Source: Symbiobacteriaceae bacterium (lineage in GTDB: Bacteria > Bacillota > Sulfobacillia > Symbiobacteriales > Symbiobacteriaceae). From it: a DNA stretch of 64,000 bases. Made by a program: the position numbers and the translations under genes. Shown one piece after another: positions 15,052 to 18,964 of this stretch. The notes beneath the pieces were generated by a model. It was not told the origin of the DNA. It worked only from the letters and a program-made list of their open reading frames with translations, and searched no databases. The stretch spans positions 1 through 64,000 of the forward strand of contig JARBUG010000002.1 in assembly GCA_029239785.1 (NCBI GenBank). Direction: 5' to 3'. Each line of letters opens with the position of its first letter. Position 1 is the first letter of the stretch.

Positions 15052-15521
15052 TGCCCTGTCGCCCCCTCTTTCCGAATACGGTCAACAATGTGCGGTAACT
15101 TGGCTGCAAAGTCACTGGCGGTGGCTTCGTAATCTGCCAAAGTTCCGCCGAACGGGTCTGCTATATCCTGGGCGGAGCCGACGTACTCGCTGATATGATG
15201 CACACGCCCGGCAAGGTGGGGCCACCGGCTAAGGATATACTCCCTGTGCCGGTGGGTCATGGTCAGAACCAGGTCGACACTGGCTAGGGTCTGGTCGTCC
15301 ACCGTGCGGGACCGGTGTGCCGAAAGGTCCAGCCCGCGGTTACGCATGGCCGACACCGCATGTGGGCTGGCCGCGGAGCCAGGCATGGCGCCCGTTCCGG
15401 CAGAGAGGACCTCGATGTCCCACCCGGGGGCCGCTGCCTGCCATTCATGTCTGAGCATGGCTTCTGCCATGGGGCTCCGGCAGGTGTTGCCGGTGCACAC
15501 AAGCAAGACCTTGCGAATCAT
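15048..15521 (-). CDS. ywlE: Low-molecular-weight phosphatase, probable protein-arginine phosphatase (YwlE)
   Basis: This 157-residue protein has the P-loop CTGNTCRS at residues 9-16: nucleophile C9, then T13, C14 and R15. The general-acid Asp is in the DPFGG segment. In YwlE the threonine in this loop selects phosphoarginine over phosphotyrosine, and the same threonine is present here (T13). Synteny with sua5 and rpiB also matches ywlE. It would reverse McsB-type arginine phosphorylation that marks proteins for ClpCP. Whether mcsB exists in this genome cannot be seen. It overlaps sua5 by four bases. Confidence 0.9.
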   Translation of the reverse strand: MIRKVLLVCTGNTCRSPMAEAMLRHEWQAAAPGWDIEVLSAGTGAMPGSAASPHAVSAMRNRGLDLSAHRSRTVDDQTLASVDLVLTMTHRHREYILSRWPHLAGRVHHISEYVGSAQDIADPFGGTLADYEATASDFAAKLPHIVDRIRKEGATGQ

Positions 15522-16582
15522 ACCTGAACCACCCGTCCAGCGGCGGCCCGGCGGAGGCGGTTCATAATGGCGAGGCCCATACCCGTCGCGGGGACCCCTT
15601 CAACCAGAACCACGCTGACACCGTGCCGATCAAAGGCACGCAGGGTGCTGAAAAGGTCACTCGCCATACCGGAGAGGTCGTCGCGGGAGCCGTACTCCAG
15701 GACAACGGGCGCCTGGTAGACGCCGCGGCTTTCGGCCGAGCACATGATACCGACCTTTTGGCCTTCCTCTTCGTACTCATAAGCGAGATCCTTGATTTTT
15801 GACTGCATGTCGAGCACCGGGCCATCAACCAGAATGACCTGCGCCTGCGGGGCGTAGTGCTTGTATTTCATACCCGGCGACCGCGGCGACTCGCCGGCCT
15901 CGGCGCCATGCACCGTGCGGTCCACCACAACTTCGCCAATTTCCTTTGTAAGCTGCTCAAGGGTAACGCCACCGGGCCGAAGCAGAACCGGCGGGTCCAC
16001 GGTTAAATCGAGCACGGTGGATTCCACGCCAACCCCGGTCTCGCCGCCATCCAAAATGATGTCAATGCGGCCAGCCAGATCTTCCACCACATGGTCAGCT
16101 GCGGTGGGGCTGGGGCGCCCCGAGCGGTTCGCACTGGGCGCCGCAATAGGCACGCCGGCTGCCCGGATGAGTGCCAGCGCCACAGGATGATGCGGCATGC
16201 GAACGCCAACCGTATCCAGACCGCCGGTAACGCTGTCAGGCACAGTCGGTCGTTTGGGGAGCACAAGGGTCAAAGGGCCGGGCCAGAATCGCTCTGCCAG
16301 GCGGTCCGCCTTGGGCGGAATTTCTCGAACCACGTCAGACAGCATGCCGCGATCTGACACATGAACGATGAGCGGATTGTCCGAAGGACGCCCCTTCGCC
16401 ACAAAAATTCGCTCCACCGCGGCCGCGTTGGCAGCGTCGGCGCCCAGGCCGTATACAGTTTCGGTTGGGAATGCTACCAGCCCCCCGGAACGGATGGTCG
16501 CAGCGGCCTCGGCCAGAGGTGCAACCTCAGGCTGCGCAACATCCACCGCGAACACTCTGGTACCGTTAACCAGGTTCTCCAT
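15518..16582 (-). CDS. sua5: Threonylcarbamoyl-AMP synthase (Sua5/YwlC)
   Basis: This protein of about 354 residues makes threonylcarbamoyl-AMP from threonine, bicarbonate and ATP for the t6A modification of ANN-decoding tRNAs. The N-terminal YrdC domain has FPTETVYGLGADA, KGRPSDNPLIVHV, and SANRSGRPSPTAADHV. A C-terminal Sua5 domain (from about 215) follows a linker containing SPGMKYKHYAPQA. ATG 16582 is favoured over ATG 16588 because GGGGGG ends six bases before it. The gene begins a coupled series sua5-ywlE-rpiB-ywlG. Confidence 0.93.
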   Translation of the reverse strand: MENLVNGTRVFAVDVAQPEVAPLAEAAATIRSGGLVAFPTETVYGLGADAANAAAVERIFVAKGRPSDNPLIVHVSDRGMLSDVVREIPPKADRLAERFWPGPLTLVLPKRPTVPDSVTGGLDTVGVRMPHHPVALALIRAAGVPIAAPSANRSGRPSPTAADHVVEDLAGRIDIILDGGETGVGVESTVLDLTVDPPVLLRPGGVTLEQLTKEIGEVVVDRTVHGAEAGESPRSPGMKYKHYAPQAQVILVDGPVLDMQSKIKDLAYEYEEEGQKVGIMCSAESRGVYQAPVVLEYGSRDDLSGMASDLFSTLRAFDRHGVSVVLVEGVPATGMGLAIMNRLRRAAAGRVVQV

Positions 16583-16782
16583 GGTCATCCCCCCTGCTTA
16601 ACCCCCATCTAACTGGACACTGTTCTGGATTCAGTATGGCTTTTCCTGCCGAAAACCAGCCTTACCCTCATCCAGGATGTCCGAAAACCCGTCGCATATG
16701 TATGGGTATATTACTGAAAATGGGACTGCAGTCCTATGGAAAACTGTACCAATTTGGGTAGAATTAGAAGTGTAGTGAGCCC

Positions 16783-16875
16783 CTTCCACAAAGGGCAAAC
16801 TCGCCGAAAGGCGGGGACGCAAAGCCACGGGCCTACAGCGCAGAAGCGCCACGGCAGCCGGGTTGCTGGATCGGG
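16783..16875 (+). promoter_or_regulatory. Cyclic-di-GMP-I (GEMM) riboswitch aptamer
   Basis: The + strand matches the class I cyclic-di-GMP aptamer closely. In order it has AAAGGGCAAAC, a GAAA tetraloop closed by CGCC/GGCG, GGGACGCAAAGCCACGGGCC, and GCAGCCGGGTTGCTG. These include the conserved tetraloop, its receptor region and the ligand-binding core as in the Vibrio Vc2 aptamer. The closing P1 helix can form between CCCTTCC (16781-16787) and GGATCGGG (16868-16875). It points away from sua5, toward the 3' end of prmC on the opposite strand. The motif match is read by eye; a covariance-model search was not possible. Confidence 0.93.
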
Positions 16876-16920
16876 CAGGCCATTTCAGGGCCTGCTCCCA
16901 GCCGGAGCAGGTCCATTTTT
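16873..16920 (+). terminator. Riboswitch expression platform: antiterminator and intrinsic terminator
   Basis: An 11-base-pair terminator stem (GGGCCTGCTCC 16888-16898 with GGAGCAGGTCC 16904-16914) is followed by A and five Ts. A competing antiterminator can form between GGGCAGGCC (16873-16881) and GGCCTGCTC (16889-16897). Its first arm shares GGG with the aptamer P1 helix, so ligand binding should favour termination. An OFF switch is therefore inferred. Confidence 0.85.
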
Positions 16921-17041
16921 GCGTGTTAGGCCCGCCGTCTACCCCCCTGACGGCTCCTATAACCCCCCAAAACGGTTCCATTATGAACGCCACACCCGCA
17001 GGTACCCCCCCTGCGGGTGTGGCGTTTCCATTACTCCTTGA
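16919..17041 (+). CDS. Possible 40-residue ORF downstream of the riboswitch (doubtful)
   Basis: A TTG at 16919 in the terminator U-tract is preceded at seven bases by GGAGCAGG, which also forms the 3' arm of the terminator. It opens a 40-codon frame ending with TGA at 17039-17041, overlapping the prmC stop by 11 bases on the opposite strand. The peptide is rich in Arg, Pro and Tyr, with YPPDG, YNPPK and RYPPCG repeated because of three C-tracts. It has no recognised domain. Sequestration of the ribosome binding site in the terminator would fit riboswitch control, but the frame may be chance; the segment could equally act as an RNA. Confidence 0.2.
   Translation: MRVRPAVYPPDGSYNPPKRFHYERHTRRYPPCGCGVSITP
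16986..17026. terminator. Long hairpin at the end of prmC
   Basis: A perfect 17-base-pair stem (AACGCCACACCCGCAGG and its complement) closes a TACCCCC loop. It lies directly after the prmC stop on the - strand and after the riboswitch on the + strand. T-runs are short on both sides (TTTCC on +, TTC on -), so it may end both transcripts weakly or act as a 3' stabiliser. Confidence 0.6.
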
Positions 17042-17876
17042 AGCCCACAACCACCCGGTCAATGCCCGCTGTATCGGTGTGTACGCGAACCGCGGCCAGA
17101 CCGGCGCCCCGGAAAATCTCTGCAACGGCGCCAGCCTGCCGGTACCCTACCTCTACCGCCAGGAACCCGCCGGGCTTGAGCAGCGAAAGCCCCTCCGCCG
17201 CCAGCCGCCGATACAGAACGAGCCCGTCCGGCCCCGGCGTGAGGGCCCCCTTCGGTTCGAACTGCCGGACTTCTGGCATGAGCTCTGCCCACTCAGCTTC
17301 ATCAATATACGGCGGATTCGAGAGAATGGCATCATACGGGTCACCGCCGGCAAGCGGTGCCGTCAGATCTCCCAACCGGAACTCGACCCGGTTTCCCATG
17401 CCGTTAGTGCGGGCGTTCTCCCGGGCAACGGCAAGCGCTTCGGGGCTGATGTCAACCGCAACGACCCGGGCCTCCGGCAGCAGACTGGCCAGCCCGACGG
17501 CAATTGCACCGCTGCCCGTGCCAATGTCCGCCACGCGCACCTGGCCCTGCAGCAGAGCAGCCGCCTCGCGGACGAGTATTTCGGTATCAAACCGGGGGAT
17601 CAGCACGGCGGGGGTAACGAGGAAGGTCATGCCCATGAACTCTTCGGTGCCCAGAATGTACTGGAGCGGTTCCCGCCCCACCCGGCGCCCGACAAGCCCC
17701 TCAAATGCAGCGGCGGCGTTCGCATCAATTTGCCGGCCCGCATGCAGCCTGACCGCACCGGCAGAGGTGCCCAACACATGGGCCAGCAGCCAGACTGCCT
17801 CCCGGTCAGCTTCCTCCACCCCCGCACCGGCGAGGCGCCGGGCAGCGTCAGCCAGCGCCTCCCGAACGGTTCTCAT
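17031..17876 (-). CDS. prmC: Release factor glutamine methyltransferase
   Basis: This 281-residue enzyme methylates the glutamine of the GGQ motif in release factors using S-adenosylmethionine. It has an N-terminal helical domain (residues 1-80) and a Rossmann methyltransferase domain with VADIGTGSGAIAVGLA and the substrate motif SNPPYIDEAEW. It directly follows prfA by five bases, its substrate's gene, as in many bacteria. The 3' end faces a riboswitch-controlled transcription unit on the + strand. Confidence 0.95.
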   Translation of the reverse strand: MRTVREALADAARRLAGAGVEEADREAVWLLAHVLGTSAGAVRLHAGRQIDANAAAAFEGLVGRRVGREPLQYILGTEEFMGMTFLVTPAVLIPRFDTEILVREAAALLQGQVRVADIGTGSGAIAVGLASLLPEARVVAVDISPEALAVARENARTNGMGNRVEFRLGDLTAPLAGGDPYDAILSNPPYIDEAEWAELMPEVRQFEPKGALTPGPDGLVLYRRLAAEGLSLLKPGGFLAVEVGYRQAGAVAEIFRGAGLAAVRVHTDTAGIDRVVVGFKE

Positions 17877-17881
17877 CGCGA

Positions 17882-18964
17882 TTACGCCTCCATACCTTGC
17901 ATCCGCTCGGCCTGCTCATGCTGGGCCAGCGCATCGATCACATCATCGATGCCGCCGTCCATGAGGGCGGGCAGATTGTGGACCGTCAGACCGATACGGT
18001 GGTCCGTCAGGCGGTCCTGCGGGAAGTTGTAGGTGCGGATTTTCTCAGACCGGTCGCCCGAGCCGACCTGCGACCGGCGCTGGGCGTCCTCGCTGGACTT
18101 TGCCTCGCGAGTGTACAGGTCGAGCAGGCGGGACCGAAGCACCCGCATGGCCTTTTCCTTGTTCTGAACCTGGGAGCGTTCGTCAGCGCAGTACACCACA
18201 ATGCCCGTTGCCAGGTGCGTAAGGCGAACCGCAGACTCCGTCTTGTTTACGTGCTGGCCGCCGGCGCCACCGGCCCGGGTCAGTTCGATTCTGTAGTCCT
18301 CGGACTTGATTTCCAACTCGACTTCTTCGGCTTCCGGCATTACTGCCACCGTAACGGTCGAGGTATGAATGCGGCCCTGCGCCTCGGTTTCCGGCACCCG
18401 CTGCACGCGGTGCACGCCGCCCTCGTACTTGAGACGGCTGTATGCGCCTTCGGCGTTGATCTGGAAAATGACTTCCTTGACGCCGCCGGCCTCGGTCTGG
18501 TTGATGTCGATCAACTCGGTCTTCCAGCGACGCCGCTCGGCGTACCGGCTGTACATGCGGTAAAGTTCGCCTGCGAACAGCGAGGCCTCGTCGCCACCGG
18601 CGCCGGCCCGAATTTCGATAATGACATTCTTTTCGTCATTGGGGTCACGGGGGAGCAGCAGCACCTTTAGGTCCTCCGTCAGCTGCGCCTCGCGGGCCTT
18701 CAGTTCCGTGTACTCGGCCTGGAAGAGCTCACGCTCTTCGGCCTCAAGCTGGCCATCCAACATGGCCCGCACGTCGGCCATTTCGGTCTCGACGCGCTTA
18801 TACTCCCGGAACTTCTCGACCACGGGACCCATTTTGCTGTGCTCGCGGGCGGTCTTCTGAAACTCGCTCGCGTTACCAATGATGGAAGGGTCGCCGAGCT
18901 TGTGGCCCAGGTCCTCGTACCTGGCCTCGACGCCTTCAAGCTTATCCTTCATGCTGTTATCCAC
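17882..18964 (-). CDS. prfA: Peptide chain release factor 1
   Basis: This 360-residue protein ends translation at UAA and UAG. It carries the peptidyl-hydrolysis motif GGQHVNKTESAVRLTH and the RF1 segments AGAGGDEASLFAGELYRMY and RIHTSTVTVAVMPEAEE. The start is GTG 18964 with GAGGTG about nine bases upstream; ATG 18952 is an alternative. It is upstream of prmC, which modifies it. Confidence 0.97.
   Translation of the reverse strand: MDNSMKDKLEGVEARYEDLGHKLGDPSIIGNASEFQKTAREHSKMGPVVEKFREYKRVETEMADVRAMLDGQLEAEERELFQAEYTELKAREAQLTEDLKVLLLPRDPNDEKNVIIEIRAGAGGDEASLFAGELYRMYSRYAERRRWKTELIDINQTEAGGVKEVIFQINAEGAYSRLKYEGGVHRVQRVPETEAQGRIHTSTVTVAVMPEAEEVELEIKSEDYRIELTRAGGAGGQHVNKTESAVRLTHLATGIVVYCADERSQVQNKEKAMRVLRSRLLDLYTREAKSSEDAQRRSQVGSGDRSEKIRTYNFPQDRLTDHRIGLTVHNLPALMDGGIDDVIDALAQHEQAERMQGMEA

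Follow-up and report, generated by a model that had tools for sequence, protein, structure and literature searches.

Riboswitches are nearly always cis-acting, with one switch per transcript, and cyclic di-GMP (c-di-GMP) reaches its regulons mainly via protein effectors. Cobalamin riboswitch control of EutX/Rli55 (said to have been described by DebRoy in 2014, a study that PMC7266159 cites) and of AspocR reportedly works differently, with the riboswitch terminating or releasing a trans-acting or antisense RNA; EutX is said to sequester a protein and AspocR to act as an antisense RNA, and both reportedly respond to another ligand than c-di-GMP and make no use of C-rich loops. Here we describe a class I c-di-GMP (c-di-GMP-I) riboswitch on the plus strand of a 64,000-nucleotide (nt) stretch of contig JARBUG010000002.1 from a Symbiobacteriaceae bacterium, hereafter the window, where it lies between the genes prmC and sua5.

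Non-coding RNAs placed behind c-di-GMP-I switches have been described before. In prophages of Clostridioides difficile, the riboswitches Cdi1_4 and Cdi1_5 precede the antitoxin RNAs RCd11 and RCd12 (PMC7699646, PMC11477304). Those systems resemble the unit predicted here in being class I OFF switches with a short terminated RNA (∼140 nt there) and a longer non-coding read-through product. RCd11 and RCd12 are cis-antisense antitoxins with a second, stronger promoter, whereas the present locus is predicted to encode a conserved, intergenic RNA with C-rich loops in a housekeeping neighborhood, and no toxin gene was identified opposite. The merRNA of Bdellovibrio is also an orphan c-di-GMP riboswitch RNA lacking a conserved open reading frame (ORF); the accessible part of that report proposes a ligand store and describes no switch-controlled, C-rich small RNA (sRNA) (PMC3627812). 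Antisense-oriented c-di-GMP riboswitches have been catalogued as well (PMC9943018).

C-rich sRNAs form the other group of relevant systems. B11, an RNA of the 6C type in mycobacteria, represses eccB4, whose 5' untranslated region contains a tract of six G, and can do so with either loop (PMC10470900). Screening turned up no chaperone on which 6C depends (PMC8628891). The RNA described here shares with 6C/B11 of Actinobacteria two C-loop hairpins, the last at the 3' end, but differs in phylum, in its three C segments and in the attached riboswitch. ar14 of Alphaproteobacteria likewise has three hairpins with C-rich loops, which resemble anti-Shine-Dalgarno sequences; unlike the present unit, its loops read CCUCCUCCC rather than C6 and it has no riboswitch. 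In our literature search, limited to open-licence papers, we came across no riboswitch that controls an sRNA with C-rich loops, a coupling that appears to be new.

We propose that the locus is probably a stand-alone non-coding unit in which a dedicated promoter is followed by a c-di-GMP-I aptamer, then by a switch between terminator and antiterminator, and finally by a trans-acting sRNA with three C-rich segments. With a little less than even confidence, we further suggest that the riboswitch gates this sRNA so as to lower, in trans, the translation of many mRNAs with G-run ribosome-binding sites. If true, one RNA sensor joined to a trans-acting sRNA would reach a whole regulon, and many genes would be commanded by one riboswitch.

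Aptamer and transcriptional switch

The genome of the window (G000; 5.5 Mb, 302 contigs) was compared with relatives, above all with G002, which belongs to another genus in the family (prmC is 68% identical between them). An Rfam covariance search gave a single above-threshold match in the window, to c-di-GMP-I (RF01051). It scores 86.8 bits (gathering score 35; E 9e-16), with all 87 model positions aligned. This agrees with a first-pass annotation, made by a model from the letters alone, which had recognized an intact class I aptamer. GGGCAAAC, GCAAAGCC and UUGC are seen directly in the aptamer sequence, at ligand-contact positions that we take to be G20, A47 and C92 (Vc2 numbering). By sequence this is a genuine c-di-GMP-I riboswitch, and ligand binding is predicted. 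There are 19 GGDEF domains in G000 and 13 in G002; with many GGDEF proteins in both genomes, the ligand is therefore expected to be present. cmscan places the G002 aptamer (L034 2321-2406, minus strand) in c-di-GMP-I-GGC (RF03167), a variant family, and not in RF01051, although these contact residues look unchanged.

The aptamer is followed by an intrinsic terminator and a competing antiterminator helix (Table 1), the pair whose first arm the first-pass annotation had described as overlapping P1. The 5' arm of the antiterminator and the base of the predicted P1 helix share 16873-16876; with the helices overlapping, P1, the antiterminator and the terminator exclude one another. Calculated with rough energy models, the terminator and the antiterminator come out at nearly the same stability in both species. 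Because the helices exclude one another in G000 and G002 alike, the layout supports a class I transcriptional OFF switch in which the ligand would favor termination, as had also been predicted on first reading. The same direction is reported for class I switches of C. difficile (PMC11477304).

Upstream, the −10-like box noted earlier is kept in G002, and the alignment shows the promoter segments CCTATGGAA and GGTAGAATNAGA to be kept there too; the RNA is expected to start near 16770-16772. A dyad, GGACTGCAGTCC, is a possible regulator site on the sRNA promoter. Downstream, the two plus-strand ORFs (16736-17041 and 16863-18032) have neither a Pfam match nor a G002 counterpart, in keeping with the early impression that no sense gene follows. 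Pfam also agrees that prmC and prfA lie on the minus strand, where sua5 is found as well.

In G002 the riboswitch unit occupies the same prmC-sua5 gap, in the same orientation and order, and is 81% identical over ∼240 bases. The first-pass annotation had proposed this comparison of related genomes. Among the genomes compared, only G000 and G002 have the switch at this position; it is absent from the gap in three other family members (G001, G003 and G004), in which the gap measures only ∼175-225 bases. As the unit is common to two genera, it is no stray relic of a single genome.

Conserved C-rich RNA beyond the terminator

The interval 16921-17026, overlooked in the first-pass annotation, is a conserved, structured, C-rich RNA sequence. 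In both genomes ∼105 nt follow the terminator, with three C-rich segments of 5-7 C, two of them in hairpin loops. This comparison of the read-through RNA covers two genomes (n=2). For comparison, fourfold-degenerate sites in the genes on either side are 36-42% identical, and the part of the spacer toward sua5 is 43% identical. The core past the terminator is 81% identical (43/53; binomial p ∼6e-9 at 0.42), hairpin 3 is 74% and the aptamer 89% identical, vs 55% past 17030.

Many of the differences between G000 and G002 fall in stems, where pairing is maintained: five two-sided changes, four in hairpin 3 and one in hairpin 1, preserve both stems. Single-base indels distinguish the C tracts of the two genomes, and no reading frame survives them. 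Since the core is conserved, the stems are compensated and no frame is shared, we read selection as acting on RNA and not on a protein. The first-pass annotation had listed a small RNA among the possible products of the switch, an option that the conserved sequence and covarying stems of a second genus now favor. The three C6 runs within 80 bases are the single such cluster in the window, where 0.08 would be expected under a first-order Markov null; C6 runs as a whole are rarer in the window than under the null (16 observed vs 67).

The middle C segment, ACCCCCCAAAAC, forms a hairpin loop in G002, closed by a 7-bp stem (CUCCUAU/AUAGGAG), and is weakly paired in G000. Hairpin 3 is the likely 3' end of the sRNA and possibly doubles as the prmC terminator when read from the other strand. 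That second role could explain part of the conservation of hairpin 3, but not that of the middle C segment or of GUUAGGCCCGCCG. Separately, the conserved UAGGCCC at 16927-16933 is complementary to GGGCCUA at 16829-16835 within the aptamer, so pairing between the two might alter the aptamer fold in the read-through RNA.

Two known families of sRNAs with C-rich loops were tried as homes for this RNA and rejected, as scores fell below the cut-offs: 25.6 and 26.9 bits in the two genomes for 6C (RF01066; cut-off 47), and 19.5 bits, with 30.3 in G002 (E 1.9e-4 over all Rfam), for ar14 (RF02344; cut-off 58.8). The two six-C-loop hairpins of 6C do have counterparts in hairpins 1 and 3, with C6 and C7 loops in G000 and C5 and C7 loops in G002. 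We count the similarity to both families, though below threshold, as independent support for a C-rich-loop sRNA.

Table 1. Features of the riboswitch locus and its neighbors (window coordinates)
Feature	Position	Strand	Remarks
c-di-GMP-I aptamer	16784..16870	+	RF01051; G002 copy 89% identical
P1 5' strand, predicted	16779..16788	+	GCCC 16779-16782/GGGC 16873-16876; UCCA 16785-16788/UGGA 16867-16870; complementarity in both species, pairing predicted
Antiterminator helix	16873..16897	+	16873-16881/16889-16897, 9 bp; −17.4 kcal/mol, −17.1 in G002 (folding)
Intrinsic terminator	16888..16920	+	11-bp stem 16888-16914, ATTTTT next, U-tract 16916-16920; 10-bp core −18.1 kcal/mol, −18.9 in G002
Conserved GUUAGGCCCGCCG	16925..16937	+	Identical in G002
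sRNA hairpin 1	16934..16954	+	6-bp stem, C6 loop (C 16942-16947); 5 C in G002 loop; one compensatory pair after shifting one alignment gap
Middle C6 segment ACCCCCCAAAAC	16962..16973	+	C 16963-16968; identical in G002
sRNA hairpin 3	16986..17026	+	17-bp stem, C7 loop (C 17005-17011); C7 also in G002; four pairs changed on both sides vs G002
Promoter, predicted	16735..16764	+	−10 TAGAAT 16759-16764; weak −35 TATGGA 16735-16740 or TGGAAA 16737-16742
Dyad GGACTGCAGTCC, candidate regulator site	about 16723..16734 (16719-16740 at widest)		Upstream of promoter; alignment; partly kept in G002 (AGGACC..GACCT)
prmC	17031..17876	−	Pfam PrmC_N + methyltransferase; convergent neighbor, outside unit
sua5	15518..16588	−	Pfam Sua5_yciO_yrdC; divergent neighbor; GGGGGG in ribosome-binding site, 16589-16594

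Proposed mechanism and competing explanations

In the mechanism that we infer, bound ligand at high c-di-GMP would stabilize P1, which would hold 16873-16876 and block the antiterminator, and polymerase would then stop at ∼16920, leaving an inactive RNA of ∼150 nt. At low c-di-GMP the antiterminator would form, and polymerase would read on to hairpin 3 (∼17026-17032) to give an RNA of ∼255 nt. Its free C5-C7 segments would pair with G-rich sequences, most likely G-run ribosome-binding sites, and the paired mRNAs would be repressed or otherwise controlled.

Several observations weigh against this interpretation. Scores for 6C and ar14 stay below the cut-offs, and 154 class genomes searched specifically for 6C yielded no match. 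The sRNA was also searched for with a model of its own, R1, in the same 154 class genomes and in a sample of 398 phylum genomes, using strict filters that may lose weak matches; R1 matched none of the 152 class genomes other than G000 and G002, and gave no convincing match in the phylum sample. Two weak matches appeared there, of which the one in G243 (L134) covered hairpin 3 alone and the one in G173 (L135) was rejected as ordinary tandem terminator hairpins without C6 loops. Furthermore, the energy model forms the middle hairpin poorly in the window, the U-tract after hairpin 3 is weak, which leaves the exact 3' end loose, and no target is conserved between G000 and G002: the G6 site of sua5 reads GGGAGGGA in G002, and the G7 site of a fliN-like gene has no comparison, since no fliN or fliM was found in that genome. 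An exact-pattern search of a contig collection returned G002 (JAQBPS010000089) and four matches in unrelated phyla, which were taken as chance from the record titles.

Other explanations of the locus were also weighed. The RNA might mainly be a c-di-GMP sink or a stand-alone c-di-GMP-binding RNA like merRNA, with a C-rich tail that merely ends or stabilizes it. Like the present RNA, merRNA is an orphan with a c-di-GMP riboswitch and no conserved ORF (PMC3627812). A sink, however, needs neither a terminator/antiterminator pair nor a conserved 105-nt segment behind the terminator, and the accessible part of the merRNA report gives no conservation outside Bdellovibrio and no mention of C-rich loops. 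We regard this explanation as unlikely, and hold a similarly low opinion of the idea that the C-rich hairpins are merely terminators (hairpin 3 for prmC) and the riboswitch a remnant that had lost its gene by the time the two genera diverged. The location of hairpin 3 just after the prmC stop codon, where it could serve the minus strand, fits such a history, as do the three other family members without the unit. Against it stand an aptamer and switch that are intact in both genera at a divergence where synonymous sites are saturated, the identity of the middle ACCCCCCAAAAC and of GUUAGGCCCGCCG although they lie outside the terminator hairpin, and the position of all three C tracts on the plus strand. 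The loss of a target gene, raised in the first-pass annotation, is also unlikely, as the switch stands orphaned in the same way in both genera.

Slightly less probable still is antisense control, also suggested on first reading, in which read-through would enter prmC/prfA and dampen release-factor modification at low c-di-GMP. prmC is convergent, with its stop codon 4 bases past hairpin 3, and c-di-GMP riboswitches are the family most often antisense-oriented (PMC9943018). Yet the 17-bp hairpin 3, kept by compensatory changes, is placed to close the unit before prmC is entered (the predicted unit ends at 17026 and prmC begins at 17031), conservation is down to 55% past 17030, and prmC also occurs in family members that lack the switch. 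The remaining proposal of that annotation, a very small protein behind the switch, we consider highly improbable. c-di-GMP-I riboswitches can precede tiny genes, as the second G000 switch does with a 34-aa ORF, but at the present locus no frame is maintained between the species across the C-tract indels, and G002 lacks the ATG at 16983, leaving no shared start. Sense proteins of any size were rejected as candidates, having no Pfam match and no frame common to G000 and G002. The non-coding unit with a trans-acting C-rich sRNA is the reading that we prefer.

Candidate targets and other c-di-GMP-I riboswitches

The target side of this sRNA proposal is conjectural because no target is common to the two genomes. 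GGGGGG-N4-9-ATG occurs at 221 sites in G000 vs 109 for the reversed control; G-run ribosome-binding sites are therefore common and possible targets many. G runs appear concentrated at ribosome-binding sites, the G6-ATG sites being at 2x the control while C6/G6 runs are ∼4x rarer than the null in the window. Pairing of the sRNA with the ribosome-binding site of sua5 is possible. In G001 and G003 (L063 and L065), a gene reading as fliM has a c-di-GMP-I riboswitch ∼300 bases upstream; in G000 the sRNA could instead reach the G7 ribosome-binding site of the fliN-like gene (L096:1515), a candidate picked from the 30 of 221 sites inspected that may be due to chance.

The c-di-GMP-I aptamer is common across the 61 genomes surveyed (G000 and 60 relatives). 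Most of the order-level copies inspected have a protein frame behind them, reading by eye, without Pfam, as FliM, methyl-accepting proteins, Flp-type pilins or tandem-repeat proteins. Some orphan riboswitches may be explicable by a conserved RNA, not a protein, behind the terminator, and the approach used here extends to all orphan c-di-GMP-I sites. In G007 (L068) and G002 (L079), c-di-GMP-I riboswitches stand before genes reading as Flp-type pilins and have C6 runs in the P3 loop or platform. G000 itself has two aptamers above the cut-off and one weak match. The second strong one (L080 on contig C247, 3746-3833, minus strand) is followed, after its terminator, by the 34-aa ORF (3668-3564, minus strand), which has a good ribosome-binding site (MEDAAFVTGFWFGGVLVAIFTAGAVLESSRRRWR) and likely encodes a single-span membrane microprotein.
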